A stretch of 49,108 nucleotides of DNA, taken from contig JAJPIL010000006.1 of the NCBI GenBank assembly GCA_021324755.1, positions 1-49,108 of the forward strand. The letters are read 5' to 3'. This document shows positions 485 to 39,614 of this stretch, in pieces. Below the pieces are notes generated by a model. That model ran no database searches and had not been told where the DNA came from. It worked only from the letters and a program-made list of their open reading frames with translations. Source of the stretch: Pseudomonadota bacterium. GTDB lineage: Bacteria; Desulfobacterota; Binatia; Binatales; Binataceae. Numbering within the stretch: position 1 is the first letter of the stretch; every line of letters begins with the position of its first letter. The position numbers and the translations under genes were made by a program.

Positions 485-1402
485 TCAGCTAGCCTGCTGG
501 AGCATCCCGTCGTTGTCGTCACGCATTACGCGGCTAGCCAAAATTTCCTCCGGCTCGATCGTCATCAGGTCGTCTTTGGTAAGAGGACGCTTTCCCGAAG
601 CGAGCAGGCGGGAAGCGTGGCGCAGGCGTGCTCGCTCGAGCGCGTTTCGTATGCTGCGAGCATTGGCGAAATTAGGCTGCGCCATCCGCCGTTCGATGTA
701 CAAGCGCAACGCCTGCTCGGCCGCGGGACTCAGCCGGTAGTGCTGGTTGGCCAGCATCAGCTTGGCGATCTCCATGAGCTCGTCGACGGTGTAGTCCGGG
801 AAGTCGATGTGATGGGTAATACGCGACTTCATACCGGGATTTCCCTGAAAGAACCGCTCCATGCGATCCTTGTAGCCGGCGAGAATAACCACCAGATCGT
901 CGCGATTGTTCTCCATCACTTGGAGCAGGATCTCGATCGCCTCTTGCCCGTAGTCGCGCTCGTTTTCGGGGCGATACAAATAGTAGGCCTCGTCGATAAA
1001 AAGAACGCCGCCCATCGCTCGCTTGAGCACTTCCTTGGTTTTCGGGGCGGTATGACCCACGTACTGCCCCACAAGGTCGTCGCGCGTAGCTGTCACCAGG
1101 TGTCCTTTGCGACTGTATCCGAGCCGATGAAGAATTTCAGCCATTCGCAGCGCGACAGTAGTCTTTCCGGTTCCCGGATTGCCGGTAAAACACATATGAA
1201 GGGAGGGGCTTTCGGCCACCAGCCCATGCTCGCGCCGCAGGCGATCGATCACTAAGAGCGAGGCGATTTCACGGATTCTGGTCTTGACTGGCTTTAGCCC
1301 GACCAGCTCCTTGTCAAGGCGGGCGAGCATTTCCTGGGCTATGGCGTCGAGCCCCTCCGTATGCTTAGTTTCCGTATCGAGCATCGAAACGTTGTCAGCC
1401 AT
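485..1402 (-). CDS. cbbX: CbbX, red-type RuBisCO activase (AAA+)
   Basis: CbbX is a hexameric AAA+ ATPase that threads the C-terminus of red-type RuBisCO large subunits and frees active sites from inhibitory sugar phosphates. The 305-residue protein has Walker A GNPGTGKT (74-81), pore loop GQYVGHT (112-118), Walker B VLFIDEA (133-139), an arginine-finger region NPGMKSR (188-194) and a sensor-2 stretch ARSIRN (249-254). Its length matches known CbbX proteins. The start codon overlaps the last 8 bases of cbbS, which indicates translational coupling. Position directly after cbbLS is the usual arrangement for form IC/ID RuBisCO and agrees with the type of large subunit seen here. Confidence 0.96.
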
Positions 1403-1823
1403 CGTCCCGATAACGCATCCCTATTGGTCGATTCGCCGCGTATGACCGAACTGTGTACCTGATTTGACGGTCGGCGAAATCTGTTCGCTCCAGGTGGAAA
1501 CCTGGTTCATGGGCAGGTCTGTTTACGATAAAGCTCAGGGCCGTAGTTTGCCGACCTTTGCTGCGGTCATAAGCGCTTATCCTGATGTACAAGTTGGGGT
1601 TAGCCTTACGGCACTGTTCGAGTTCCATCATTACTGCCGCGGCGTCCGTTACGTCGAACATCGGCAAGCCCCACAGGCTCCAATACACGTTTCGCGGATG
1701 GGGATCGTCTGTGTATTCGATCGCCACCGACCATCCACGGTCGAGCGCGTATTGGACCTGGGCGCGTATTTCTTCGTCGGTAAGAGGCGGTAAATAAGAG
1801 AAAGTTCCCTGCGTCAAATGCAT
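1395..1823 (-). CDS. cbbS: RuBisCO small subunit (red-type, form IC/ID)
   Basis: This is the small subunit of form I RuBisCO, 142 residues when started at the ATG at 1823. That start is preferred because a perfect AGGAGG lies at 1835-1840 and the protein then begins [19 protein letters not shown], the typical N-terminus; a longer in-frame reading runs into cbbL and is not credible. The motif [11 protein letters not shown] and the long C-terminal extension (from about residue 105, ending in IRYTVRSYA and then a GMRYRDDG tail) mark the red-type IC/ID class, whose C-terminal hairpin lines the central solvent channel. cbbL ends 16 bases upstream and cbbX starts inside the last codons. Confidence 0.96.
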
Positions 1824-3456: not shown

Positions 3457-5610
3457 TCAAAAAACGTACTCATGTTCGGCGAAATCCTCTTCGTGATCCT
3501 TGGCGACGACGCGCACCAGCACCGATTGACGGGCGCTCAAGATGCGATGGCTGAGCAGGAGCTGAGCAAGTGCGAGCGGGTCGCTGTGCCTGCGTCGGCG
3601 CGCCTTTTCTTCGTAGGTCCCCAGCCTTTCGGGTGGTACGTAGTGGAGTTCGCCGTGCTTGCCGTCGATGTGCGCCCAGATGTTAGCCTCGATAAGGCGC
3701 GCCTCTTCGGGAGTGACCGCACCGTCAATTTCGATGACGTCGGCCCGCATTCCATCTTCGTCGACTACATCAAGATACAGACGGATCCACTTCGAGTCGT
3801 TGATTTCGCGGTCGAAGTTTAGGCGTGGCAAACTGTGGCGCTGGGTGATTCGGACGCTTAGATGGCGCATGTCGGTCAAAGAGGGGTCGCTGCGAAAAAA
3901 CCGCACCACCATGTCGGCGTATTTTCGTTGCGGCTTGATATAGGCTTCGACATCGGGACGCCGAGCCTCGAGTTCGGCGAGCACCTGCTGCCTGGAGTAT
4001 CCGCGTTTTACGACGTCGCGCTGAATTTTCCACTCAACGCGCAGCTCTTCTTCCGGGTCGAGCCAGACCTTGAGGTCGAAAGCGTGGCGAATTGCCGGAA
4101 CCAGAAAAGGATGCAAGCCTTGCACAAGAACGACGTCACGTGGGTGGACGATTTCGGGCCCTTTGATTGTGCCGTCGCGATGGTCGTAGATCGGCTTTCT
4201 GATCGGCTCTCCGCGCTTAAGCGCGAGAATTTGCTCCTCCATCAGAGCAAAGTTGTTCGCCCGTGGATTAAGTGCGGTAAGCCCCACCAGGCTGCGCTGA
4301 TGTCGGTCGAGAGAATGGTAGTCGTCCAGGCAAATGCAGGTGATGCGCTCGGGTCCGAACATCTCGTAGAAGGCCGAAGTAAGCGTGCTTTTGCCGCTGC
4401 CGCTGTCGCCGCCGATACCGACAAAGATGGGACGCTGCGGTCTTTTCGGTTTGGGCTTTGCCTCTTTTCGCGCAATCGGCTTTGCGCGTTTGACCTTTTC
4501 GCCGACCTCGCGCAGGAGCTTTTCAAAGGCTTGGACGAAGAGTTGCACGCCTTGGGCTTCGAGCTCGCGCGCTACCTGTTCGAGGTCGATGCCGGCAGAG
4601 GCCAGAGCCGTAAGTTCGCGCTGAGACTCGCTCAAGCCCTCGATAAGGGTTGCGCCGCGAATCACACCATGGTCGATCAGTGCGCGGATCGTAGTCAGCG
4701 GCATGGTGGCGACGGTGTTAGGGCCAACGAGTTCTTCGACATAAGTTGTGTCGCGATAGGCTGGGTTTTTGACGCTGGTTGAGGCCCACAGCAGCCGCTG
4801 CGGCTTGGCGCCGCGCTGAATCGTTCGTTTGGCCGCTTTGCTCGTCATAAACTCTCGCCACAGGGCGTAAGCGGCACGAGCGCTGGCAACAGCCGCCTTG
4901 CCCTTTAGCGCGGCGAGCACAGGTTTGTCGGCCTCGGGCGCCGAGTTAATTTTTTCTTCGATAAGCGCGTCCACGACGGTATCGATACGGCTTACGAAAA
5001 AGCTTGCAACTGAAGCGATTCGGTCAAGTTTGAGCCCGCGCTCGTAGGCTGAGGACATGCCTTTGACCCATGCTTCGAGCACTTGTGCATACCGGGAGAG
5101 CCCAAAAATTAGGGTTACGTTGACGTTGATGCCTTCGGCCAACAGCGAGGCGATCGCCTCAAGCCCGGCATCTGTGGCCGGAACCTTGATCATCAAGTTG
5201 TCCCGCGCAACTGCGGCGTAAAGTCTTCGCGCCTCGGTGACTGTGGCCGTGGGGTCATGAGCGAGCTCGGGCGAAACTTCAAGACTTACGAACCCATCGG
5301 CGCCGCGGGTCTGAACGTAGATCGGTTCGAGGATGTCGGCGACAGCTTGAATATCGGCGATAGCCAGTGCTTCGTATACCGACTTGGGTGACGCCGCAGT
5401 CGGCGCGATTCGCGCTATCTGATCGTCGTAAGTTGTGGAAGAAAGCGCCTTTTGAAAAATGGCGGGATTTGACGTTACGCCGGTTACGCCGCTCCCCTTT
5501 ACCAGCGCGGCCAGCTCGCCGCTGCGAATCAAATCACGGCTAAGCTCATCACACCAAGGGCTTTGACCCAGCTGGCGCATACGCTTTAAAGGGTTTGCAG
5601 CGTTCGACAT
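3457..5610 (-). CDS. Transaldolase-phosphoribulokinase fusion protein
   Basis: This is a two-domain protein of 717 residues. Residues 1-370 are a transaldolase of the type also found fused to phosphoglucose isomerase: GVTSNPAIFQ (44-53), SLEVSPELAHD (109-119), Schiff-base Lys142 in LMIKVPAT, NVTLIFGLSRY (164-174) and SVASFFVSRID (200-210). A basic, proline-rich linker follows (371-393). Residues 394-717 are a phosphoribulokinase of the plant/cyanobacterial type: Walker A GGDSGSGKST (400-409), CLDDYHSLDRHQR (427-439), KPIYDH (472-477) and QGLHP (498-502). The last motif is normally EGLHP; here Gln498 (codon CAA) replaces the Glu. Transaldolase makes sedoheptulose-7-phosphate from erythrose-4-phosphate and fructose-6-phosphate; the kinase makes ribulose-1,5-bisphosphate. 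AGGAG precedes the ATG at 5610. It is the first gene of the cbb operon. Confidence 0.93.
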   Translation of the reverse strand: MSNAANPLKRMRQLGQSPWCDELSRDLIRSGELAALVKGSGVTGVTSNPAIFQKALSSTTYDDQIARIAPTAASPKSVYEALAIADIQAVADILEPIYVQTRGADGFVSLEVSPELAHDPTATVTEARRLYAAVARDNLMIKVPATDAGLEAIASLLAEGINVNVTLIFGLSRYAQVLEAWVKGMSSAYERGLKLDRIASVASFFVSRIDTVVDALIEEKINSAPEADKPVLAALKGKAAVASARAAYALWREFMTSKAAKRTIQRGAKPQRLLWASTSVKNPAYRDTTYVEELVGPNTVATMPLTTIRALIDHGVIRGATLIEGLSESQRELTALASAGIDLEQVARELEAQGVQLFVQAFEKLLREVGEKVKRAKPIARKEAKPKPKRPQRPIFVGIGGDSGSGKSTLTSAFYEMFGPERITCICLDDYHSLDRHQRSLVGLTALNPRANNFALMEEQILALKRGEPIRKPIYDHRDGTIKGPEIVHPRDVVLVQGLHPFLVPAIRHAFDLKVWLDPEEELRVEWKIQRDVVKRGYSRQQVLAELEARRPDVEAYIKPQRKYADMVVRFFRSDPSLTDMRHLSVRITQRHSLPRLNFDREINDSKWIRLYLDVVDEDGMRADVIEIDGAVTPEEARLIEANIWAHIDGKHGELHYVPPERLGTYEEKARRRRHSDPLALAQLLLSHRILSARQSVLVRVVAKDHEEDFAEHEYVF

Positions 5611-5792
5611 CGATCAATCTCCTTTCATTGAAACGTTGTTGTCTTTAACAAAAATGGACTTCGGCGAGCCTTCGTTAGGCGATGAACGGGCAAGCACTGA
5701 GCTCGCCCCACTCTGGGAGGGCGACTCGATCCGCCGGGCGATTTTGACAGAGGGAAAGTTATGTTCACAGTTTAACATTTCTGGTACGCCAC

Positions 5793-5856: not shown

Positions 5857-6801
5857 ATGCTTGAGTCGAGGCTCGAACGGCAGATAACGCTGCACCAGCT
5901 GCGCATCTTCAAAAGCGTCGTTGACCATCGCAGCTTTACGCGCGCGGCAGAGGCTTTATTTCTCACGCAGCCGGCCGTAACCCATCAGATGAAGACCTTA
6001 GCCGCGGCGATCGGCCATCCGTTATTCCAGCCTTCGCGCAGGCGCTTTGCGCTCACGGCCGTAGGCGAGGCTCTCTACGAGCGAGCGGGCCGGATACTGG
6101 CCTTGGTGCGCGAGACCGGCGAAGCGATCGACGCGCTGCTCGGTAGCCGCGGCGGCTCTCTGTTAGTAGCAGCCGACACAACAGTGGGAATTTACGTGAT
6201 TCCCGACGCTTTAGCGGACTTCCATCGCCGATATCCGGGAATCAAACTTCGCCTAGACGTCGTGAACCGGGCGCGGGTGCGAGAGTTACTTATCAACGGA
6301 GATGCGGATCTCGGTGTTTTGGGGCGCCTGTGGAAGGACAGCGCTTTGGCGGCGGAGCCATTCATGGAGAATACCGTGATGTGGTTCTGCGCTCCGAACC
6401 ATCCTTTAATTAAGCGCGAGCCGCTTCATCCGAAGATGCTCTTGGAGGGGCCGTTGCTTTTGCGCGAACCGGGCTCGGGAACGCGCGAGACTGCTGAAAG
6501 CGTGCTCAAGAGGTACGGCGTCGAGGCGAAGCCGGCGATGGAGATAGCGAGCAACGGCGCGCTTAAACGGGCGGTGGCTGGTGGTTTGGGCGTCGCTGCG
6601 TTTTCGACCTGGGCGGTGCGGCTGGAGCTGGCTTCCGGTTTGTTGCATCCGCTTCGCGTGCGCGGTTTTCCCGTCAAAAGGATGTGGCACATCGTTTGGC
6701 TCAAGGAGCGGCTATTGAGCCCAGCGGCGCAAGCCTTTCTTGCCCACCTTCGAAGTGCTCAATGGCGCAAGCGTTTGCCCGTTGCCCTTGGCAGCGAATA
6801 G
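5857..6801 (+). CDS. cbbR: LysR-family regulator, probable CbbR
   Basis: This is a LysR-type transcriptional regulator of 314 residues. The N-terminal winged helix-turn-helix covers about residues 12-70, with the recognition region FTRAAEALFLTQPAVTHQMK (27-46); the rest is a periplasmic-binding-like effector domain starting near VAADTTVGIYVIPDAL. Divergent orientation to a RuBisCO operon, with TNA-N7-TNA sites in the spacer, makes it the likely activator CbbR, which in other bacteria senses Calvin-cycle metabolites or redox state. The ATG at 5857 has no good Shine-Dalgarno. The presumed operator overlaps its 5' leader, suggesting autoregulation. Assignment as CbbR rests mainly on position. 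Confidence 0.88.
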   Translation: MLESRLERQITLHQLRIFKSVVDHRSFTRAAEALFLTQPAVTHQMKTLAAAIGHPLFQPSRRRFALTAVGEALYERAGRILALVRETGEAIDALLGSRGGSLLVAADTTVGIYVIPDALADFHRRYPGIKLRLDVVNRARVRELLINGDADLGVLGRLWKDSALAAEPFMENTVMWFCAPNHPLIKREPLHPKMLLEGPLLLREPGSGTRETAESVLKRYGVEAKPAMEIASNGALKRAVAGGLGVAAFSTWAVRLELASGLLHPLRVRGFPVKRMWHIVWLKERLLSPAAQAFLAHLRSAQWRKRLPVALGSE

Positions 6802-28223: not shown

Positions 28224-31010
28224 TTACCTGACGTCAACATTGATTTGAGCGGTCAATCCCAAATTCGCCAACTCCTGCTGAATCTCGCGGACAAGATTTT
28301 CTGCCTGCGCTGAATCGAGCTCTAAGACAAAGTTAATCCTCAACGTCAGTTGCGCGTTCGATCGCATCTTCGGAATCAGTCGTAAGCCGACCTTGTTCCA
28401 CAGCTCTGGCGGAATTGTCCCGGTCACCGTCAGGATACGAGTTCCATGACTGGTGGCAGGCTCGGCGTAATCCGTGCCGGCCGTTGATGGTGTGTCGGTA
28501 TCGCCTCGGCCGCCTGCAGTCGCCGATGCGTCAGTGCTCTCGGAGTCAAGCGTAAACGATTTGACAGAGCCTGCCCGCAGTGCTTCGGCTTGCTCTCTTC
28601 GCAGCAGGTAAACGTCGGCATCGAACGACACCTCGTCCGAGGATATTTGCTCGCAGAACCAAACGCGTTGGTACCCGCCATCGGCTCGCGCTCCGGAGGC
28701 CAGCCCAAAATCTCCTCGGGCAACAAACTCCGGGATCTTGCGCTTGAGATATTCGTCCGGATCGATTAGCCGTTCCAACGAACCGTCCAGAAAGGCTTGG
28801 CGCAGACTCTTAATCGGCCAAGCGCCGCTGGCCTTGAACGCTTCAGGCCACCGTCGCTCCAGATATCCGGCGCCCGGCGACTCGTTCAGGAGAGAATTGG
28901 ACCTGAGCGCACCGAGCACTCGATCGCACAGAGACTTCGCGCCGCTCGAGTGGCCCGCGCCGAGATCGATGCATTTAAGGCCGTCGGGAGACTTTCGATC
29001 AGCTAGGACGATGTATCGGTAGCTGGCCCAGACCTCTTCGCGGGCTTCATCTTCGGCACCTTTTACCTTGGATGCGACCTCGCGGAGTTCGCTCGTTTCA
29101 AATTCCCCGCCCAGCGTACCATCGTTGATTTCCCGGAGGACACGCTGCCACGCGAGCCACTGCTCCACCTTGTCGCGAAGTTCACGGCCGGGTTTGCACA
29201 GGCACCAAATGATCGACGCAGGATATAGCCGCGCAGACTTGCCGCGATTCTTTGTCCACTGAATGAGCTTGTCACGAATTTCGGCTTCGTCAGTCCAAGG
29301 CTCATCCGGGCTCAAGACGACCAGGTTGAGCTGGGGTATGTCTTCGACGTCGGCGCTGTCTTTGGGGAACGGACGTTGCACACGGAGTGTCGCCCCCGCA
29401 CGAAACTGGGCTTCAACGAGCTGCTCGCTTGCTTTCTTAACCTCCGCTTCGTCGAGCGACGCCCGCCGATCGTAAACGACCTTTTCCAGTTTCGGCTTGA
29501 GGCCGAAGCGGAAACCATCGGTTCCAGCCCTTCGGATGTAAAAAGCGCGTGCTTCGAGCGCGATCGCAGCGTTGTCGATCGAGGTCGTATCGATGTCGGG
29601 TTCTCCTAGAGCAAACCGCAACTCGGGCAGGTGAGCTATCTTGTCGCTCTGTCCCCCGGACGACTCGAACAGGATTGCCGTGCCGACGCGGCGGTGGATG
29701 TCCTTTAGCGGTCCTTTCCGGATGTCTGCATCGAGAGCCGCCGCCTTGTTCTGCGCTCCGGCGATATCGCTATCCAACGCCGGATCCAGCCGCAACTCGC
29801 CAAGCTGACCCAGCACTACTGAGCGGAATTCGCGGACATGGAGCGGCGCCGAACCCAACGTAATGAGAGGCTCGGGACGCGCATGTTTATGGTCTCTACT
29901 GAACGCGATCGAGACCCACTGAGCGAACATCGCGAGCGTTCCCCGCGTTTGCTGGAACTGCGTCAGCGACCGCCATTTGCGTTGAAACACCGTGAGCGTT
30001 GAGGGATGAAACGGATAGCACTGCTCAAATCGGGCGCGCAGAAAGTCGCGCGCCTTCGCTTCAGTGGCGGCGGTGTCGACCGCCGTCCATTCCGGCGGCA
30101 GCTCCGCTCTATGGTCGAAGCACCAATTCGCGTAGCGCAAGGCTACAGTTTTGCGTAAAGACTCCCTGCCGAGATCGTCGAACAAGCGGCGGCGAACGAC
30201 TTCAGCAATTTCGGCTTCATCGTTTACCAGCAGGTCCTTGGCGACCCGTTTCACAACCTTGGTGATTCGTTCCTGCCACTTCTGGTCCCAATCGGTCATC
30301 TCGACCTGGCTTCGTGGCAGGCTTATGACGCAGGCGCTTGCGCGCGTGCCAGTCATCGCCACGGTGAGATTCTGAATAAAGGCATAAAAGCTCTCGGCTT
30401 GCGCGCGATAGCGGTTCAAGTAGTTGAGCACTTCGTCGAACAGGATGAGAACCGAGCCGCCGGCTTTTTCGATCATCCGCCTTATCGCTTCGGTACCGGG
30501 CGGCGTCGTCCTTGCTTCGCTTCCCAACGCGGCCACGCCTGCGTCGCCGGCGAGCTGACGCGCGATATCGATCCACGGAGTCTCGCGAGTCTCGCTCGGG
30601 TCCCATGCGTTCCCTACAAAAACCGCAACCCTGCTGTGTTCGGGTAGCTTTTCGACACCCAGAACCCGGCGGAGCTCTCCACCTATCTCCTTGGCGTAAT
30701 CATGGTTCTTAACCATATGGTAGAGAGCCGTGAGCGTGTGCGTCTTGCCGCCGCCGAACTGGGTGATCAGCGTGAGCACCGGCGCGGCATTCACCGTTTC
30801 ACCGACAAGACGCCGCGCGACCATAGCCATGTGCTCGCACAGGGCCTTGGTGAAGCACGTACGGGCGAAGAAGTTCGCCGGGTTCGTGTAATCTTCAGGG
30901 GCGGTTCCGGCTACGACCTGCTCGAGCGCGATCGCGAACTCGTCGGGATTGAACGAGCGTCCCTCTCGGACCTCCGCGCGCGGCCGAACGACTTTATACC
31001 AAGGTTCCAC
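28224..31010 (-). CDS. DUF499-type P-loop ATPase of the defence operon
   Basis: This is a large P-loop ATPase of 928 residues with the DUF499 pattern. Walker A is TQFGGGKTH (83-91) and Walker B is VLILFDEV (187-194), followed by YAFIQNLTVAMTGTRASACV. A low-complexity Ser/Thr/Gly/Asp stretch lies near 790-820, ahead of a C-terminal domain of about 100 residues. Proteins of this type co-occur with DUF1156 methylases and large helicases in defence islands, and their exact role is unsettled. The start is a GTG at 31010 with GAAGG close upstream. It overlaps the end of a small ORF by 17 bases, as expected for a compact operon. Confidence 0.87.
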   Translation of the reverse strand: MEPWYKVVRPRAEVREGRSFNPDEFAIALEQVVAGTAPEDYTNPANFFARTCFTKALCEHMAMVARRLVGETVNAAPVLTLITQFGGGKTHTLTALYHMVKNHDYAKEIGGELRRVLGVEKLPEHSRVAVFVGNAWDPSETRETPWIDIARQLAGDAGVAALGSEARTTPPGTEAIRRMIEKAGGSVLILFDEVLNYLNRYRAQAESFYAFIQNLTVAMTGTRASACVISLPRSQVEMTDWDQKWQERITKVVKRVAKDLLVNDEAEIAEVVRRRLFDDLGRESLRKTVALRYANWCFDHRAELPPEWTAVDTAATEAKARDFLRARFEQCYPFHPSTLTVFQRKWRSLTQFQQTRGTLAMFAQWVSIAFSRDHKHARPEPLITLGSAPLHVREFRSVVLGQLGELRLDPALDSDIAGAQNKAAALDADIRKGPLKDIHRRVGTAILFESSGGQSDKIAHLPELRFALGEPDIDTTSIDNAAIALEARAFYIRRAGTDGFRFGLKPKLEKVVYDRRASLDEAEVKKASEQLVEAQFRAGATLRVQRPFPKDSADVEDIPQLNLVVLSPDEPWTDEAEIRDKLIQWTKNRGKSARLYPASIIWCLCKPGRELRDKVEQWLAWQRVLREINDGTLGGEFETSELREVASKVKGAEDEAREEVWASYRYIVLADRKSPDGLKCIDLGAGHSSGAKSLCDRVLGALRSNSLLNESPGAGYLERRWPEAFKASGAWPIKSLRQAFLDGSLERLIDPDEYLKRKIPEFVARGDFGLASGARADGGYQRVWFCEQISSDEVSFDADVYLLRREQAEALRAGSVKSFTLDSESTDASATAGGRGDTDTPSTAGTDYAEPATSHGTRILTVTGTIPPELWNKVGLRLIPKMRSNAQLTLRINFVLELDSAQAENLVREIQQELANLGLTAQINVDVR

Positions 31011-31350
31011 TGGCCTTCACCCTCGTTTGTTCAAAAATTTGACTTCGTACGCGTAGAGCCGATGTTCCCTGGACCGCTCCAGCTTTGCGACGTTCACTAT
31101 CATCAGTCAAAACTCCGCCGGGCAAGGCTCGCATGCTTTCGTGAAATGTCTTTGTGAGTTCCCAAAATGCCGATGCCTTCAATTCGAAGCTTCCTTCAAG
31201 CCCTTGATCGAACAGATCCGACAGTTGGCTCGGCTGGTTGCGGAAATAGGACGCTATGATCGGATCGGCGACGTACCCGAGAAGCCGAGCACATGGTTCC
31301 GCAACTCGACCCAGGCAGATCGAGTCCGCTAAGGCATTCCCGTCCACCAT
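30994..31350 (-). CDS. Small unrecognised ORF between methylase and ATPase genes
   Basis: This frame of 118 codons fills most of the 443-base gap between the DUF1156 methylase and the DUF499 ATPase genes and overlaps the ATPase start by 17 bases. The first about 75 residues have a protein-like composition (CLGRVAEPCARLLGYVADPI, LSDLFDQGLEGSFELKASAF), while the tail looks random. It has no recognised family and no clear Shine-Dalgarno. It may be a real small subunit, the remnant of one, or chance. Confidence 0.35.
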   Translation of the reverse strand: MVDGNALADSICLGRVAEPCARLLGYVADPIIASYFRNQPSQLSDLFDQGLEGSFELKASAFWELTKTFHESMRALPGGVLTDDSERRKAGAVQGTSALRVRSQIFEQTRVKASGTLV

Positions 31351-31453
31351 GGATCTTGGCGTGGCCCCAATGTTCGACTCAGGCCCCCAATCTTCGGTGA
31401 ATCCTTTGCCACATTTCGGCCACCTCTACAACGGCGTATTATCATCCACGCTC

Positions 31454-34400
31454 CTATTTTGGGGCTGCAAGGAGCATAGCGTCGAGCAGGCGTTTTTCCT
31501 CGCTGTCACGGGGGTAGAGGGCGGACAAGGCGTTGGCGAGGCGAAAGAAGTCCGGGCCGCGCTCGGCCTCGGCCTTGAGCATCGTGCGCAGCGCATTCGA
31601 CTTGCCGCTCGCCTGAAGCAGCATCGCGATGTGCACGCGGTCCAGCGTCGTGGTTCCGGGCGCTAAGGTTGGGGCTTCATCGGGCGCCGACTTCGCACTC
31701 TTTGTCCCGCCGCGGCGGCCAGTCTTTCGGGGCCTGTCGTCCTCGAGCAACGAGAGCTGGATGGGCTCGCCGCGGCTGCGTTCGATCATATCGGCGACAC
31801 CCGATGCGCCGTCTTTACCGAGCAGCTGCTCCGCGCGTTCTTTCACCGGCAGTAGCCGCACGATTCCCTTTTTCGTCTCGATTATTCGGCCGTTCCACGT
31901 ATCGAGATGGATCCCGAGCGGCTGGCAAAACCGACGGACCACATCGTAAATCAGCGTAAGGCCCCTCTTGGTCGCTCCGCTTGATGCTTCGTCGTCGTCT
32001 TCATCTGCCGATTCGGACACGTCCTCTTCGGAGGATTCAGCGCCCGCGGCGTTGGGCGCGCCATTTAAAGAAGTAGATTGATGGGTCCAGAGAAAGAGCG
32101 CGGTCAGGCGCGCGTCCTCCTCGAGTGCGCCGGCAGCACCGTTTCTCGCGCGTGCTTCGGCGGTGCCGAGCACTTGTTCCAACGCAGTGCGGCTCACGAT
32201 CTCCCATACGTAGGCGAGGAAGCCGCGCTTGTACGGCTCGGTCGCTTCGGGGTTGCCGCCGAGCGGGATTTCGCGGCCTTCGGCGTCCTCGACGCGCGAG
32301 TAGCGGCTGTAGATTTCCATCGCGGGGCCGATACAGGCGAAGACGAGATCGGCGCCGCGGACGCCTTCGGAAGAGAGCCGCTCCATCCAGTCACCGATCC
32401 GGTCCGGAAGCTCGCGGAAGACATCGGCCCAATCGCCAATGGGCGCATCTTCGGGTCGCGGTCGGCATACGAGATGAACGCTGGAGCCCAAAGCCGCGGA
32501 ATCTTGGGCTCGCATACGCTGGGGCTTCTCCGTCGTTACAGGCCAGGAACCTGAGACCGTCCAGCCGCCCTTGATCATGCCCGAGAGCAGCGCTTCCCAA
32601 CCTTCTGTGGTTTTGTGGGCGAAGACAACCGAACCGATACCGTCATCTCTCAGCACGCGCCGGCCTTCGGCGAATGCAAGCGCCATCCGTTCCTCGAAGA
32701 ACGCGCGATCTTTCGGGCGGCTGTCGAAGCGTTTGGTTTCGTCTTGAACGATCTCGCATTCTTTTGGTGTGAGCGGCTCGCGCGTCAAAGGATCTTCAGG
32801 CAAGGCCCGCTTGAGCCAGACGTAGAAGAAGTCTGAGAGGTCGGCATATGGAACTGCATCGTAGTAAGGAGGATCAGTAAATAAGGCCGCTGCCGCGTCG
32901 TCGGGTAGAGGCAGCTTGCAGGCGTCCGCCTCCTGCACTTGCACCGGCGTTCCCGCGAAGCCTGACAATTTCCTAACGGTGCTGCAGATCCAATCGATAG
33001 CCACTCCCAGGGCCCCTGTTGCTCCTCCTAGAGGGGTGGCCTCGCACCAATCCCAAAGTATGGGCAGCGCCTGTCTCCCGAAAGTTGCGACGCTCTTTTC
33101 CATATGGTTCGCCCACCGAGCGAGGCTTGAGTTGAAATCAGCTTGCTTGCTAAGGGCGAATGCGAGGGGTGCCCTGACGGCTTCCAACTCCACCCTCCCT
33201 ATAATGCCAGCGAGGGTCGTTAGCGCAAGTTTCTGGCGGGCGGTGAAGAGGTCGCCGAATTGCATCATCCCGTAGTTTTGCACCGAGAATGCGCGGCCGG
33301 CGCCGGAACCTCCGCCTGCGGGTGTAGGTTCGTCGGGAATTACGCTCAGGCCGTTCGGCAGCTTCTCTTTCGCGAGCTTCGCAACTGCCTTCTGCGCCTT
33401 CCATACCGCCTCGTAATCGCGGTCAGTCGCGACGCGATACTGGCGACCAGCCTTGTCGTCTTTGAGCGTCACGACCGCGAGCAGGCGCGCTCCACCGATG
33501 CGATTACCGTCTGCGTCGAAGATAGTATCCGCGCCGCCACGCTGCTTGCGCAATTGCACCCGCACCCGCTCGACCGGAAGCACCCTTTCGCATGCTGGGC
33601 AGGTCGCGTTGCCGCGCGCGACGGTTCCGCGCGGAACCTCCTTTTCGCTATTAGGCGTGAAGACCTCGAATTCGATATGGGGAGTCTTGCCTTTGGGACG
33701 CCTAATTTCGTAGCGCAGCGCCCGCATCCGGCTCGCCTCCTTGCAGAGCCAGAACGAGCGAACCAGTGGGATTTCTGCGCCGCAATTGGGCGATTCGCAT
33801 TGCACAGTGCGCGCCCAGAGATACGCGATGGGAACGGCTCCATCAGGATCGGGCGGGTAATACTGCGCCAGTTCCTTTTCAGCCTGCCTCTTTATCTCCG
33901 CACCCACACGCCGAAGCTCGTCGGCAAGCTCGGGGCCGTAGCGCGGGATATCTTCGAGCATCACTTTTAGAATCAGGCATGCGACCGGGTTGAGGTCGCT
34001 CGCGAAGGCGTCGCATCCAAGGCGCAAAGCTTCGAGCGGAATCGATCCGCCGCCGGCGAAGGGATCGACGACCAGCGGCGGCTCCTCGCCATGCGCCGCT
34101 TTGACCAGTCCGCGTCCGACTTCGAGATACCGTTGATTTGCCGCCAGATCCCAGTTCGAGAAATCTCCGATGAATTTCAGCAGCGCCTTGCGCAGATCGA
34201 GGTCGTTCGGACCGGGCCTGCCCTGGACTTCCTCCAGGAGGTGGCGCGCTTTGTCCTTGAAATCCGAAGGACAATTCTCATCGCAGGGGTCGGGCAGCAG
34301 AAGCGCAAGCAGCATCGCCCTGCAGGCGGCGAGCGGGCGGCGCGCCCACCACAGATGAAGCGTGCTCGGATGGCCGTGCCGGATAGACTTTTCGCGCGCC

Positions 34401-34468
34401 GAATGCGCGCTCACCACCGCAATCGGAAAATCTACCTCCGCCAGTCGCTTACACTCCTTGGGTATCAT
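31454..34468 (-). CDS. DUF1156 adenine-type DNA methylase
   Basis: This 1004-residue protein is a DNA methyltransferase. The DUF1156 N-terminus is clear: KSIRHGHPSTLHLWWARRPL (28-47). The S-adenosylmethionine motif is VVDPFAGGGSIPLEALRLG (133-151) and the catalytic motif is TDPPYYD (531-537), the order of amino-methylases acting on adenine N6 or cytosine N4. An inserted cysteine pair CESPNC (224-229) with CPAC (290-293) suggests a zinc ribbon. The C-terminus includes an acidic linker (about 835-860) and a basic GRRGGTKSAK stretch. Its start overlaps the stop of the upstream membrane-protein gene by four bases (ATGA). In Hma- and DISARM-like systems such enzymes mark host DNA as self. Confidence 0.92.
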   Translation of the reverse strand: MIPKECKRLAEVDFPIAVVSAHSAREKSIRHGHPSTLHLWWARRPLAACRAMLLALLLPDPCDENCPSDFKDKARHLLEEVQGRPGPNDLDLRKALLKFIGDFSNWDLAANQRYLEVGRGLVKAAHGEEPPLVVDPFAGGGSIPLEALRLGCDAFASDLNPVACLILKVMLEDIPRYGPELADELRRVGAEIKRQAEKELAQYYPPDPDGAVPIAYLWARTVQCESPNCGAEIPLVRSFWLCKEASRMRALRYEIRRPKGKTPHIEFEVFTPNSEKEVPRGTVARGNATCPACERVLPVERVRVQLRKQRGGADTIFDADGNRIGGARLLAVVTLKDDKAGRQYRVATDRDYEAVWKAQKAVAKLAKEKLPNGLSVIPDEPTPAGGGSGAGRAFSVQNYGMMQFGDLFTARQKLALTTLAGIIGRVELEAVRAPLAFALSKQADFNSSLARWANHMEKSVATFGRQALPILWDWCEATPLGGATGALGVAIDWICSTVRKLSGFAGTPVQVQEADACKLPLPDDAAAALFTDPPYYDAVPYADLSDFFYVWLKRALPEDPLTREPLTPKECEIVQDETKRFDSRPKDRAFFEERMALAFAEGRRVLRDDGIGSVVFAHKTTEGWEALLSGMIKGGWTVSGSWPVTTEKPQRMRAQDSAALGSSVHLVCRPRPEDAPIGDWADVFRELPDRIGDWMERLSSEGVRGADLVFACIGPAMEIYSRYSRVEDAEGREIPLGGNPEATEPYKRGFLAYVWEIVSRTALEQVLGTAEARARNGAAGALEEDARLTALFLWTHQSTSLNGAPNAAGAESSEEDVSESADEDDDEASSGATKRGLTLIYDVVRRFCQPLGIHLDTWNGRIIETKKGIVRLLPVKERAEQLLGKDGASGVADMIERSRGEPIQLSLLEDDRPRKTGRRGGTKSAKSAPDEAPTLAPGTTTLDRVHIAMLLQASGKSNALRTMLKAEAERGPDFFRLANALSALYPRDSEEKRLLDAMLLAAPK

Positions 34469-35421
34469 GGTCTTGGGATGCCGATCTGCCTCAGGAGATA
34501 AACGGCATAGGCTCGGCCTAAAGGAGTGAGCTTCACGTTATTGCGATTGCGGTCGATGGTCACGCAGCCCGCCGCGCCCAGTGCGCTCAGGGTGGGGCGG
34601 ACCGCGGCGCCGATCTCTCGAGCGCGAACTATTAGTTCCCCGAGGGTCACTTGGCCCTTCTCGAAGAGCCAAAGAAGTAGAACCTTCGTTTGTAATACGA
34701 AGAACCGGTCCAGAGAAGAAAAAATATCGCCTGTCAGCGGAACCCTAGGAGCAATAGGAGCAAACAGCTGTAGCGGTCCAATCCTTATGCTTTCGACACC
34801 CAATAGCAGGAGTAACCTAGAGATATGCCGCCACAATAAAAGCGGTGCCGGAAGGAGTGCGATGACCAAGTCCGGCACCGAGAGGCTGAACCTTGGCCAC
34901 AACTTGAACAGATCGACCATCAAGATCACGAGTAGCGCAACCGAGTAAATGATGGGCAGCCAAAGGAAGAAACAAGCTATCAGGCGTTCTCCACACCACC
35001 GAGCGTTTGCGCGGATCGTGCTCCACAAGCTATCGCACCGATCGGCGTAAACGTTCAACGTTCCACTCGCGATGTCGGTGTCCCAGGTGCCGTATGCCCT
35101 CGTTAGTCCGTGGTCAAATGTGACATCGGCCTTGCCAGTAAAGGAAGCGCTGAGCGAATTGACTCGAAAATGTCGCATTTGAAGTTTAGCGTTGTTTCCC
35201 TGGAGCGAGCCTTCTATGCGGAACGTGGTCACGCCGAACAAATCGTCGTGAAATATGGCGTCGCCCCGATATGTTCCGCCCTCGCGCTCGAGCCGGATTA
35301 TGATCGTTCCGCGGTTCGAGCCGGTGACATGTCCTTTCCAGAACTTGGGCAAGGAGGGTGCGGAGCCCGCCTGATTCGTTGTAGAGTTTTCAACAGACGC
35401 TGGGCTTTTAGGTTCTGCCAT
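34465..35421 (-). CDS. Unrecognised membrane protein with C-terminal winged helix
   Basis: I do not recognise this 318-residue protein as a known family. Visible parts are a disordered N-terminus (1-24); a beta-rich domain (about 25-127: GTIIIRLEREGGTYRGDAIF, FRIEGSLQGNNAKLQMRHF); two membrane helices (about 148-170 and 182-208); and a cytoplasmic C-terminal domain (about 240-315: LLWLFEKGQVTLGELIVRAR, LSALGAAGCVTIDRNRNNVK) that looks like a winged helix. Its start overlaps the helicase end by 14 bases, and its stop overlaps the methylase start by four bases. So it is translationally coupled to both and must be part of the system. It could tether the complex to the membrane or act as a membrane-damaging effector. 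Confidence 0.8.
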   Translation of the reverse strand: MAEPKSPASVENSTTNQAGSAPSLPKFWKGHVTGSNRGTIIIRLEREGGTYRGDAIFHDDLFGVTTFRIEGSLQGNNAKLQMRHFRVNSLSASFTGKADVTFDHGLTRAYGTWDTDIASGTLNVYADRCDSLWSTIRANARWCGERLIACFFLWLPIIYSVALLVILMVDLFKLWPRFSLSVPDLVIALLPAPLLLWRHISRLLLLLGVESIRIGPLQLFAPIAPRVPLTGDIFSSLDRFFVLQTKVLLLWLFEKGQVTLGELIVRAREIGAAVRPTLSALGAAGCVTIDRNRNNVKLTPLGRAYAVYLLRQIGIPRP

Positions 35422-38400
35422 TTGTCAGTGCCTCCACGCGCAAGGCGTAGTGGTCGATCTTACGGACCTCGCTCCATTCAAGTTGCGCCGGGTCCTTGAT
35501 GGTCAGCAGTTTCGGACCGTCCGGGTGTTTGCATCGCGTTACTACGTAAAGCCAGTAGCAATCGCGGCGGTCCTCGGCGGTGCGCTTTTCGTTCGGCGTC
35601 AGCGCGACGACGCCGTCGTCGCCCGCAAGCCCCTTGACCTCGATAAGCCGAAGTTCGCCCGAGTTGGGGTCGAGGCTCGTGATGTCGTAACCGAGATCCT
35701 TTTCGTGGACGTCGGTGGCCGAACGGCCTTGTGATCGCTCGTACTCCATCGCCGTGCGCATCGCTATCGCTTCGGTCTCGGGATCGGGCCGAAGGTTGCG
35801 AACCTCGGGTGTCTCCCTCTCGGGATGCGGAAGGACCAGAACCGAAGTCATACGCTCGACTCCCTGGAGCGTCAGCGAGCGCTGCCGTTCGAGTTCTTCG
35901 CGGCGCCGGTTGCGCCGCTCTATCAATTCTGCATGCCTCATCTCGGCCTGGCGCAAATTGCCCGCGGCTCCTTCGACCCCGCGCTCGACATCCTCCTGAA
36001 GCCGACCGATTCGCTGGTCTTCGCGGAAGATCAACTCGGCCAAGGACGTTTCCACGTGCTTACTGATTCGCTCGACTTCGGCGAGGCGCTCCGCACGGAC
36101 CTCTTCAAGAAACGGGACGAGCGCGTTGTCATTGAGCCATGCACGCGGCTCCGGAAGCGTCGCGACGCTGGGAAGCTTGTCGGGAGGTGGCGCAGGGCCG
36201 AAATTTCCGAGCACTGCTGGGTCGCGAAGTGTGGCCGAGCCGTCAGAAGAAACCTCCACGGCGAATATCCGCTCATGGATTACGTCCCCGAGCCCATCGA
36301 CGACTTTCGCCCGATAGAAATCGATTCGCACCGGCTCGCTAATGTCGAGCGAGTAGAAGCAGGCGCCCTGCACCATCGACTCGCGCGATCGGTCGACAAT
36401 GTATCGGCGGATCGCCTCGAACAATGGATGACCCGGGGTTACCCATTCCAGATTGTTCTTCTCGGCGACTTTCCTGTCGGTCGAGAAGCGCGGATAGCGG
36501 TTGGAGAGCTGATCGAGTCGCCAGTCAGAGCTACTCTCGTAACGCTTTAGGGCGAGCGGCGTCGTGGCCGGATCGAAAGTATGCGGCAGGCCAGCCACCG
36601 GCTTGAGCGTGAACGGCACGTGCGGCGCGGCCTGTGCGATGAAGCGGGCTATTGTCTCGGGTACGACCCGGCGTTCCTGAGCGCGGGCGCGCCTCTCGAC
36701 GAGCATCGCGAGGTTGAGCTGCTTGCTCGCGAGACCTTCGAGCGCGTTCTGGCAGATCGCCCGGAATCGCTCTTCGCTGACCGGGCTCAGCAAGCGCTCT
36801 TCCAGGTCTTCGTCGCCGAGGTTTCCCGCATAGTAGTCCCGCAACACCTTCTCGATGTGAGCGGCGGGCAAGACTTCGCCGACCACGTTGAAGACCGCAT
36901 CGTCGTCGAGCGCGTTGCGGATCTCCTGCAAGCGCTGGTGCAGCTTGTCGAGAATCCGGCCTTCGACGGTGTTGGTCGCGACGAAGTTGAAGATCAGGCA
37001 ATCGTGAAGCTGGCCGTAGCGATGGATGCGGCCCATCCGCTGTTCGAGCCGGTTCGGGTTCCATGGAATGTCGTAATTGAACATGACGTGGCAGCACTGG
37101 AGGTTGATGCCTTCGCCGGCCGCTTCCGTCGCTACCAGAATTTGGATCGCCCCTTCGCGGAATTGCTGCTCCACGTAAAGCCGGGAGCCCTTTTCGTCGC
37201 GCGAGCCGATCGACATCCCGCCGTGGATGGCCCCCACGCGGAAGCCCCAGTTGCTGAGCTTATTGACCAGATAATCCAGCGTGTCTTTGAATTCAGTGAA
37301 AATCAGAAGGCGCTCGCCGGCTCGGTCGAAGAAGCCCTGCTCGCGGAGCACCGCGCGAAGCTTTGCGAGTTTCGCTTCTCCCTCGGCCTCTTCCAGTTTT
37401 TTCGCCTGAGCGGCAAGCGCTTGAAGCTTCGCGACTTCCTCGCGGACCTGAGCAGCATTCTGGGCGACCGTTATTGCCGCCAGAACGCCTTCCAGTCGTT
37501 CGCGCTCCGCTTCTTCCATTTCCTCGAGCTCTTCCTCGGTGGGAAGCTCGGGGGCAGCTGTGAGCGCAATCTCCTGGGCGCGGTTTAGGTTTTCCATTAG
37601 GCGGCGGGCGCGGTTCTCTAGAGAATGGCGCACGGCGTATGCGCTCGACGCAAGCCGCCGCTGATAGAGCGCCATCAGGAAGCTCACGGCGCGGGCGCGC
37701 GGGTCGTCGCCCTTTTCGGCCGCCTTGCGCGACTGCTCCTTTACGAACGCCGTAAGGTCACGGTATAGACGCAACTCTTCGTTGTCGATCGTAAAATCTG
37801 CCGTCCGCGTGTCGCGCTTGGTGAAGAGCTTGCGTGCCTTCCATGAGCCGTCTGGCTGCCGTTCCGGAAAATAGACCATCGCTTCCTTGGTCCGGCGCAG
37901 ATAGAAAGGCGCGGAGCGCTGCTCGATCGCTTGCCGGATCGACTTCACGTCGGCGTAGGCGTCCTGATCGAGAAGCTGAAGGAAGCGGCGGAAGTGTTCC
38001 TGGTCGCCCTTGTGCGGCGTGGCGGTCAGCAGAAGGATGTGGTCGGAATGGTCGCGAAGGTGCTCGCCGAGAGCATAGCGGGCGGTCTTTCGGGCCGGCG
38101 GCGACCATGACATCCGGTGCGCCTCATCGACGATCACCAGGTCCCAATGAACCTGTTTAAGGCCAGGCAGGATGGTGTCGCGCTTCGCCAAGTCCAGCGA
38201 TGTGATGACTTGCCGGTTCTGCAGCCACTGGTTTATGCCGTATTGCTCGCGGATCGCATCGCCCTTCAGCACGATGAACTGCTCATCGAATTTCTCACGC
38301 AGTTCACGTTGCCATTGGAACGTCAGGTTGGCGGGACACACGATCAAGGTCCGTTGAACCAGACCGCGCAGTTTCAACTCGCGCAGCAGAAGGCCAGCCA

Positions 38401-38812
38401 TAATCGTTTTACCCGCCCCAGCATCGTCAGCGAGCAGAAACCGGACACGGGCAAGCTTCAGAAGGTAGTCATAGACCGCCTCGAGCTGATGCGGTAGAGG
38501 ATCGACGCGGGAGAGCGAGAGGCCGAAGTAAGGATCGAACTCGTAGGCGATACCGAGCGCGTAGGCTTGTAGCCCGAGGCGCAGCAGTTCGCAATCGCCG
38601 CTGTAGGAAACTGCGCCACGCTCAACCTTAAGGCTCTCGATCTCAACTCGGCTTAACCGAACGCTCCTGAAAATGTTGGTGTGGATTCCGACCAGCCCGA
38701 GCTCCCAGGTGTCTGAATTGACCGGAGCAACGGTAACGACGCGCATCGGCTCGTTGAACTGCGCGCCTGACAGAATCTCGCCTCCGGCTATCGGTTGATT
38801 ATCGTTCGACAA
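35408..38812 (-). CDS. SNF2-type helicase with C-terminal DUF3883 nuclease-like domain
   Basis: This 1134-residue superfamily 2 helicase resembles DrmD-type defence helicases. An N-terminal domain (about 10-100) precedes motif I ADDAGAGKT (128-136), DEAH (229-232), LLLTATPHKGD, RTKEAMVYF and the C-terminal RecA half with IFTEFKDTLDYL, ATEAAGEGINLQ and QRMGRIHRYGQ. A long helical region follows. The last about 110 residues form a DUF3883-like domain with PD-(D/E)xK character: GYDI (Asp1043) and LIEVKG (Glu1058, Lys1060). It probably translocates on DNA and may cut it. The start is a TTG at 38812 behind AAAGGGA. higA ends 68 bases upstream on the same strand. Confidence 0.92.
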   Translation of the reverse strand: MSNDNQPIAGGEILSGAQFNEPMRVVTVAPVNSDTWELGLVGIHTNIFRSVRLSRVEIESLKVERGAVSYSGDCELLRLGLQAYALGIAYEFDPYFGLSLSRVDPLPHQLEAVYDYLLKLARVRFLLADDAGAGKTIMAGLLLRELKLRGLVQRTLIVCPANLTFQWQRELREKFDEQFIVLKGDAIREQYGINQWLQNRQVITSLDLAKRDTILPGLKQVHWDLVIVDEAHRMSWSPPARKTARYALGEHLRDHSDHILLLTATPHKGDQEHFRRFLQLLDQDAYADVKSIRQAIEQRSAPFYLRRTKEAMVYFPERQPDGSWKARKLFTKRDTRTADFTIDNEELRLYRDLTAFVKEQSRKAAEKGDDPRARAVSFLMALYQRRLASSAYAVRHSLENRARRLMENLNRAQEIALTAAPELPTEEELEEMEEAERERLEGVLAAITVAQNAAQVREEVAKLQALAAQAKKLEEAEGEAKLAKLRAVLREQGFFDRAGERLLIFTEFKDTLDYLVNKLSNWGFRVGAIHGGMSIGSRDEKGSRLYVEQQFREGAIQILVATEAAGEGINLQCCHVMFNYDIPWNPNRLEQRMGRIHRYGQLHDCLIFNFVATNTVEGRILDKLHQRLQEIRNALDDDAVFNVVGEVLPAAHIEKVLRDYYAGNLGDEDLEERLLSPVSEERFRAICQNALEGLASKQLNLAMLVERRARAQERRVVPETIARFIAQAAPHVPFTLKPVAGLPHTFDPATTPLALKRYESSSDWRLDQLSNRYPRFSTDRKVAEKNNLEWVTPGHPLFEAIRRYIVDRSRESMVQGACFYSLDISEPVRIDFYRAKVVDGLGDVIHERIFAVEVSSDGSATLRDPAVLGNFGPAPPPDKLPSVATLPEPRAWLNDNALVPFLEEVRAERLAEVERISKHVETSLAELIFREDQRIGRLQEDVERGVEGAAGNLRQAEMRHAELIERRNRRREELERQRSLTLQGVERMTSVLVLPHPERETPEVRNLRPDPETEAIAMRTAMEYERSQGRSATDVHEKDLGYDITSLDPNSGELRLIEVKGLAGDDGVVALTPNEKRTAEDRRDCYWLYVVTRCKHPDGPKLLTIKDPAQLEWSEVRKIDHYALRVEALTNGRT

Positions 38813-38880: not shown

Positions 38881-39306
38881 TCAAACTTTCGGTGACCAGC
38901 TCGCGTCGTTGAAGGAGCGCTTGGAGGCGGGGCAACGGCGACGTGGCACCCGAATCGGCTGGATGAGCACCTCGGCTGGAATCCCGAAACGCTGGTTGAG
39001 GCGGCGGATCATCTCGAGCGATAGACGCCGCTTACGATGCATCACCTCGTAAACGCGGCTCCGTCCACCGATCACGCCCACAAGCGCCCGATGGTCCAGT
39101 CCCAGCTGCTCGAGCCGGAACTTGATCGCCTCGATCGGGTCCGGCGCGTTTATCAGGAAATGCTTATCCTCGTATGCTTTTACCAGTGTCGTCAGCACCT
39201 CGAGGCGATCGCCTTCGGGTGTTCCTTCCTTAGCCCCACGCAGCCGTTCTATCTCGCGCAGCGCGACCTGGTGATCGGCGTGGCTGCGAATCGGTTTAAT
39301 CTCCAT
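38881..39306 (-). CDS. higA: HigA-type antitoxin/regulator
   Basis: This is a HigA-like antitoxin of 141 residues from the ATG at 39306 (AAGGAC eight bases upstream). Family features are the start MEIKPIRSHADHQVALREIE, a middle segment DRLEVLTTLVKAYEDKHF, and the C-terminal helix-turn-helix (about 56-115: EAIKFRLEQLGLDHRALVGV, GGRSRVYEVMHRKRRLS, IRRLNQRFGIP). HigA neutralises the HigB mRNA-cleaving toxin and represses its own promoter. Here the upstream higB is broken, so HigA has no intact local partner. It is the first intact gene before the defence operon, 68 bases ahead of the helicase, and may now serve as the operon's repressor. About 22 extra basic residues follow the usual end. Confidence 0.85.
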   Translation of the reverse strand: MEIKPIRSHADHQVALREIERLRGAKEGTPEGDRLEVLTTLVKAYEDKHFLINAPDPIEAIKFRLEQLGLDHRALVGVIGGRSRVYEVMHRKRRLSLEMIRRLNQRFGIPAEVLIQPIRVPRRRCPASKRSFNDASWSPKV

Positions 39307-39614
39307 ACTGAACCGTCCTTGTGTCAATCCTGTCGTACTCCGCGTGGCTTCAGACCCCATTGATGAACGTGACCTGGCGCACGTAATCGATTGCCATGAC
39401 TAACGGGTAACCTTTCCCCTTGATGTGGAACACCTCGCGGCCGGCGCTGACGATGCTCGCGGTCGCGTAGCTCTACTTCACCTCCACCGAGTTCTGCCAT
39501 CCCGCTCGCTGGACTTCGTAAAACCAGGCGTCTGAGGCCCTCTTCACCGCCCTTTGCCCTTTTACGTCCCTTCAGCAAATCCACGAACCGCCTAAGCGTC
39601 CTCCGCGCAGTCAC
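39296..39614 (-). pseudogene. higB: Decayed higB toxin gene
   Basis: The minus strand here encodes a HigB-like protein interrupted by a frameshift and two in-frame stops. An N-terminal piece RRTLRRFVDLLKG lies in one frame. After a shift the reading is SDAWFYEVQRAGWQNSVEVK, a stop, SYATASIVSAGREVFHIKGK, then GYPLVMAIDYVRQVTFINGV, a stop, and SHAEYDRIDTRTVQYGD. This follows the HigB order (acidic/aromatic helix, SASIV, VVFNIKGN, GTHAEYDRID) closely. The final TAA overlaps the higA start, as in intact higBA pairs. The N-terminal limit is uncertain. Sequencing error could explain one lesion, but hardly all three. Confidence 0.72.

Follow-up and report, generated by a model that had tools for sequence, protein, structure and literature searches.

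The locus raises the question of what a transaldolase is doing in the same reading frame as a phosphoribulokinase (PRK) at the head of a RuBisCO operon. The gene, carried on the minus strand of the window (the whole stretch of DNA analyzed, 49,108 nucleotides; Table 1), encodes one protein, a transaldolase joined to a PRK, and the fusion is real. The uninterrupted frame with both enzymes joined by a basic linker, as claimed in the preliminary description, was recovered as 717 codons with both halves passing curated cut-offs. The transaldolase half scored 468.5 bits against NCBIfam PRK03343 (cut-off 367) and 339.6 bits against tal_mycobact (cut-off 233.75), and the PRK half 338.6 bits against PRK07429 (cut-off 236). 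There is one PF00485 match in the host genome (3.07 Mb, 29 contigs, 95.5% complete), and it is the fusion gene. The linker, which is basic in the window copy, varies in sequence and length among the five fusions aligned in this study. No in-frame ATG, GTG or TTG was found in codons 360–395 around it, the first being ATG 417, within the kinase domain, and translation of a free PRK from a start in the linker is therefore unlikely. In a structure model of the fusion, the transaldolase half was confident (pLDDT mostly >90), with the PRK half mostly at 26–80 pLDDT per block because just three of the 20 alignment rows reach that half.

Table 1. Features of the tal-prk fusion gene and the surrounding RuBisCO cassette, in window coordinates.
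Feature	Position	Strand	Basis
tal-prk fusion gene	3457..5610	-	single open frame, 717 aa, ATG to stop
Transaldolase domain, residues 19-368	4507..5556	-	Pfam TAL_FSA, E 2.1e-81
Linker, residues 373-391	4438..4494	-	codon reading and alignment
PRK kinase core, residues 396-570	3901..4425	-	Pfam PRK (PF00485), E 4.9e-47
C-terminal part of PRK half, residues 571-717	3460..3900	-	phmmer alignment
AAAGGAG, Shine-Dalgarno-like, upstream of fusion ATG	5619..5625	-	by reading
rbcL, form I (red-type) RuBisCO large subunit, 485 aa	1840..3297	-	profile matches, sequence comparison
rbcS, RuBisCO small subunit, 142 aa from ATG 1823	1395..1823	-	Pfam, reading
cbbX, red-type RuBisCO activase	485..1402	-	TIGR02880 506 bits, cut-off 459
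Transketolase gene (tkt), 5' end, truncated by contig end	1..236	-	reading
Divergent LysR-type regulator, CbbR-like	5857..6801	+	NF045990 CbbR 191 bits, below cut-off 450

The two-domain architecture recurs in four more genomes, two of them from the host's own family and two from Eremiobacterota. Among 57 related genomes (35 from the same family, 22 from the same class), the full-length fusion was present in three: the host (G000), G015 and G027, with 69 and 68% identity to the window copy in the latter two. Scanning a collection of 84,980 species with two transaldolase peptide patterns gave 508 relatives, and among the best 80, which were kept, two were covered over the whole protein: JAJYYI010000070.1, filed as Deltaproteobacteria bacterium FK3.bin99, and QHBK01000007.1, Candidatus Eremiobacter sp. 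RRmetagenome_bin22 (G057). Whole fusions were found in 2 of 149 Eremiobacterota genomes, G057 and G072, at 60 and 62% identity. The four other fusions are also above both curated cut-offs, with PRK07429 scores of 326–336 bits. A survey of 395 genomes of the host phylum matched one at a strict limit of 1e-120, namely the host; the query comprised the transaldolase half, linker and P-loop, and fusions as distant as those of Eremiobacterota might miss that limit, whilst G015 and G027 were not among the matches and were probably not drawn into the sample. In none of 186 matching plasmid records did a single place span 80% of the fusion. The fusion is rare, yet it extends beyond any single-assembly event.

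The order cbbR, tal-prk, rbcL, rbcS, cbbX, with cbbR divergent, is kept in all five fusion genomes, in agreement with the earlier claim that the fusion heads a form I operon with tkt, cbbL, cbbS and cbbX, of which tkt is a 5' stub in the window, its first 236 bases following cbbX before the contig ends. Complete tkt genes follow cbbX in G015 (TIGR00232 842 bits, cut-off 682) and G027; in G057 there is none within 3.15 kb after cbbX, and the G072 contig ends 0.4 kb past cbbX. The first 107 bases of the window contig are identical to those of a second host contig (C5), both entering the transketolase start with different sequence upstream, and the host probably has tkt in two nearly identical copies, which the assembly could not tell apart.

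The reading favored here, with a probability of roughly 0.6, is that the bifunctional protein serves a Calvin cycle in which transaldolase forms S7P, and that the fusion arose once, with the cassette then crossing phyla. In the host, F6P would probably be supplied by a class V aldolase/phosphatase, and the transaldolase half would convert F6P and E4P to S7P and G3P. The operon transketolase, together with epimerase and isomerase, would take S7P and G3P to ribulose 5-phosphate, which the PRK half would phosphorylate to RuBP for the adjoining RuBisCO. Transaldolase would in this way stand in for SBP aldolase and SBPase, with two FBPase events per three CO2 replacing one FBPase and one SBPase event. 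Such an S7P-forming cycle balances, requiring two FBP aldolase, two FBPase, one transaldolase and three PRK turns per three CO2 and no SBPase (PMC8927339, Table 2). The fusion would more likely tie together the supply and location of the two enzymes than channel a substrate, channelling being unlikely because transketolase, epimerase and isomerase act between the transaldolase and PRK steps. A fusion matched to flux is also argued against by the 1:1 ratio of the two enzymes in the polypeptide, set against three PRK turns per transaldolase turn.

Whether the cycle could do without SBPase depends on the other enzymes of these genomes. The preliminary description proposed looking for an SBPase elsewhere in the host genome, and there is none of the PF00316 type; the host has one GlpX, without the catalytic Thr, and a PPi-dependent phosphofructokinase. 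Profile searches found PF00316 (class I FBPase/SBPase) in none of the host, G015 and G027, and in both G011 and G024, same-family genomes with a standalone PRK and no fusion. Each of the three fusion-bearing family genomes has one GlpX, and its motif is DSLEGPV, as against DP..GT in the wild-type class II enzymes from the PDB used for comparison, so that Pro occupies the position of the catalytic Thr. At this position two M. tuberculosis GlpX chains, 6ayu and 6ayv, which we take to be active-site mutants, have Ser and Ala where 6ayy has Thr. The family proteins are still above the class II FBPase cut-off of 259 (328 bits in the host, 327 bits in G015), and the host gene lies outside the RuBisCO operon, with homoserine dehydrogenase, threonine synthase, an aminotransferase and an ApgM-type mutase as neighbors. 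The GlpX of the non-fusion sister G024 has Ala for the catalytic Thr, and in the host family the rest of the protein is well kept whether Pro or Ala stands there. Loss of the Thr as a consequence of the fusion is unsupported, G024 having lost it as well. In both Eremiobacterota fusion genomes the GlpX motif is intact (DPVEGT).

All three family genomes carry a class V FBP aldolase/phosphatase (host copy 540 bits, cut-off 520), and none was found in G057. A second transaldolase in the host is fused to phosphoglucose isomerase (TAL-PGI; NF007080 1409 bits, cut-off 712) and lies beside tkt and zwf, and the operon transaldolase therefore appears to be an extra, dedicated copy and not a housekeeping one. 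Class II FBP aldolase was absent from all seven genomes searched, the three family genomes included. All seven nevertheless carry a PF01791 gene, for which reason the notion that SBP cannot be made was dropped; the copies in the host, G015 and G027 are class I FBP aldolases by NCBIfam, and PF01791 genes also lie on the contigs that hold the class I FBPase of G011 and G024. Of the three family genomes the host alone has a phosphofructokinase (PFK), and it is PPi-dependent (NF041103 581 bits, cut-off 550). Enzymes of the PPi-PFK class act on sedoheptulose phosphates in methanotrophs.

The host gene set of class V enzyme, transaldolase-PRK, operonic transketolase and RuBisCO fits an S7P-forming cycle, with which it shares RuBisCO, PRK and transaldolase and the want of a recognised SBPase. 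The alternative that survives best, whilst still unlikely, is that the canonical route operates, with GlpX, the class V enzyme or PPi-PFK hydrolyzing SBP and the transaldolase half acting as an auxiliary valve to the pentose phosphate pool. Several of the findings above weigh against the S7P-forming model and in favor of this alternative. Canonical SBPase chemistry would be possible in the host because PPi-PFK is present, and with class I FBP aldolases in the host, G015 and G027, SBP could form. It would be more open still in Eremiobacterota, where GlpX is intact in G057 and G072 and G057 has no class V enzyme. Transaldolase and SBPase can also work jointly, as argued in PMC8927339 in the part of that article consulted. 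Against the canonical route stand the lack of PF00316 and the change of the GlpX Thr to Pro in three of three family genomes, the lack of PFK in G015 and G027, and the second transaldolase, which already serves the pentose phosphate cluster.

The claim that regeneration is committed to the transaldolase route thus stands in part: it gains from the missing PF00316, the lost GlpX Thr and the second transaldolase, and is weakened by PPi-PFK and class I FBP aldolase, which could handle SBP, and by the intact GlpX of Eremiobacterota. The S7P-forming cycle is the likely pathway role of the fusion, as judged from gene content and context. A stronger version, which may fall somewhat short of an even chance, is that the cassette carries its own SBPase-free regeneration in a single transaldolase-PRK polypeptide of one origin that moved horizontally, fed in one phylum by the archaeal-type class V enzyme, with SBP never being made.

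Three standalone PRK genes of Eremiobacterota (L161, L163 and L164) lie on contigs that also hold genes of a RuBisCO operon. In two of them GlpX directly follows the PRK (L161; L164, where GlpX is in two pieces), and GlpX can therefore hold the place that transaldolase has as the partner of PRK in the fusion. The third has cbbX next after the PRK and no GlpX on its 5-kb contig.

For the S7P-forming cycle both halves would have to be active. Eight transaldolase positions (D21, N48, E111, K142, N164, S203, F205 and R208) are invariant in all five fusions, their roles being those of the corresponding residues of E. coli TalB. The Schiff-base Lys142 of the preliminary description is borne out, as K142, like F205, is invariant in the 20 aligned transaldolase sequences as well. 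F205 stands at the aldolase-converting TalB position 178, with Phe and not Tyr. In the PRK half the P-loop reads GDSGSGKST, and the P-loop Lys, T409, D429, D430, H432, R436, H477, K528, R531, D532 and R536 are invariant in all five; 17 of the 18 PRK positions checked are identical throughout, residue 408 alone being either Ser or Thr. The roles of these residues, apart from an Asp-His dyad, are likewise those of bacterial PRKs. PMC9978339 (in the part consulted) describes the catalytic Asp-His dyad, which was mapped by eye onto D429/D430 and H477.

The acidic Walker-B residue is missing, Gln497 replacing Glu in all five fusions. Six Eremiobacterota genomes have, between them, eight standalone kinases with Gln, Arg or His at this position, and one of these kinases (G174) adjoins RuBisCO genes and scores 307 bits against PRK07429 (cut-off 236); the standalone PRKs of G011 and G024 have Glu. 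Searches of open papers for Walker-B residues found nothing on that Glu. The fusions and these standalone kinases together make up a subfamily of PRK whose active site is unusual. The kinase core and the catalytic positions are common to the fusion, to cyanobacterial and plant PRK (6hzk, 6kev) and to the chains labelled cyanobacteria-specific PRK (9qkn, 9qko), whereas the C-terminal part of the fusion PRK aligns by phmmer with 9qkn and 9qko only. Compared with cyanobacterial PRK, all five fusions have Ser or Thr for the P-loop Cys, which makes redox control of the plant type improbable there. Among the positions checked, only Gln497 differs from cyanobacterial PRK in a manner that may be consequential. 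Assignment of this half as PRK follows from its profile match and its operon, and the activity is putative. The standalone PRK of G011 (L037:9906-10949) is itself closest to 9qko/9qkn (338 bits, compared with 160 bits at best for ordinary PRK), and its neighbors rbcL and cbbX suggest a Calvin-cycle role for the cyanobacteria-specific subfamily.

Both halves of the fusion evolve under purifying selection. Between G015 and G027, dN/dS was 0.109 for transaldolase, 0.063 for the PRK core and 0.076 for the PRK C-terminus, and between G057 and G072 it was 0.171, 0.177 and 0.222, respectively; the dS values, all above 0.8, are rough. The transaldolase half may instead be mainly structural or regulatory, its catalysis lost and only PRK mattering. 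Such a role would agree with its faster change in G015/G027 (dN 0.143, against 0.079 for the PRK core) and with two reactions that are not consecutive in the pathway. It is very improbable given that none of the eight active-site positions examined varies among the five fusions and that dN/dS for this half is 0.11–0.18 in the pairs compared.

Slightly less probable again is that the transaldolase half runs in the S7P-removing direction, like Ohta's FBP-bypassing variant. That variant balances on paper (PMC8927339, in the part consulted), and a GlpX that looks inactive as FBPase in three family genomes would suit it. For every three CO2, however, it would call for two SBPase events in genomes that seem to be without SBPase and that have a class V FBP aldolase/phosphatase. 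The remaining doubt, that the fusion is an assembly join or a missed stop, can be dismissed despite the window being a single MAG contig, since full-length frames free of stops occur in five genomes of two phyla.

Returning to the S7P-forming reading, its second part concerns origin. The transaldolase halves of the five fusions form one clade (SH-aLRT 99; a quick tree of 80 rows thinned from 121), as do the PRK halves (96/98; 15 rows, rooted on G011 and G024). Descent of the fusion transaldolase from the host's own TAL-PGI is unsupported, the fusion transaldolases being a separate clade. TAL-PGI has the same transaldolase subfamily as the N-terminus of the fusion; its partner is PGI and not PRK, and the transaldolase-PRK fusions reach 462–477 of the 712 bits required by NF007080.

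The window RbcL is 86–87% identical to those of G015 and G027, 83–84% to those of Eremiobacterota and 76% to that of G011, which belongs to the host's family; CbbX is 74–76% identical to the Eremiobacterota proteins and 67% to that of G011. The cassette has probably moved horizontally between phyla, in either direction, because RbcL is nearer to that of the other phylum than to that of the PRK-bearing sister genus. From these comparisons we infer a single fusion event, after which the cassette crossed phyla. Among plasmid records the closest RbcL to that of the window is a Mycobacterium form I enzyme (77.7%). The M. intracellulare subsp. chimaera plasmid NZ_CP012886.2 carries form I RuBisCO and cbbX together with tkt, rpe, prk, a class I aldolase and hydrogenase maturation genes.

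The transaldolase variant of the cycle is itself already known. Frolov is said to have described it in 2019 in Thermodesulfobium, with a form III RuBisCO. The preliminary description had placed the form III case in Thermodesulfitimonas, which is contradicted by PMC13374853, where, in the part consulted, Thermodesulfobium acidophilus is named as the earlier case. The same source describes a transaldolase variant with form I RuBisCO in Ktedonobacteria, with a red-type activase in the cluster. There, in the part consulted, the rbc cluster is said to include prk, and transaldolase is given as a gene that the genome harbors, whereas here the transaldolase is operonic and covalently joined; the main text of that article contains neither "fusion" nor "fused" (PMC13374853). 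Eremiobacterota have been credited with form IE RuBisCO and trace-gas oxidation (PMC9561532, in the part consulted), in a main text that contains neither "prk" nor "transaldolase", and with form I RuBisCO and PRK, without mention of transaldolase in the part consulted (PMC6664022). Searches of 5.39 million open papers found no transaldolase-PRK fusion, either by direct phrases or in the titles and opening abstract lines of the papers matched by keywords, in line with the preliminary description, which knew of none.

In the portions of the literature found, the form I transaldolase cycle was deduced from missing genes. A transaldolase covalently tied to the kinase of the cycle, in the RuBisCO operon and across two phyla, offers positive genetic evidence for transaldolase in the cycle. 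The fusion also offers a small protein that can be expressed to test the idea directly, and may be a ready-made SBPase-free module for engineered carbon fixation.

Elsewhere in the window, at 28224–38812 on the minus strand, lie genes for an AAA+ ATPase (HmaC, 305 bits), a DNA-adenine methylase (HmaB, 387 bits) and an SNF2/DEAD helicase (HmaA, 567 bits), a cluster that looks like an Hma-type anti-phage defense system. Beside it, at 38881–39360 on the same strand, a 159-aa frame matches part of PADLOC PD-Lambda-2_B.
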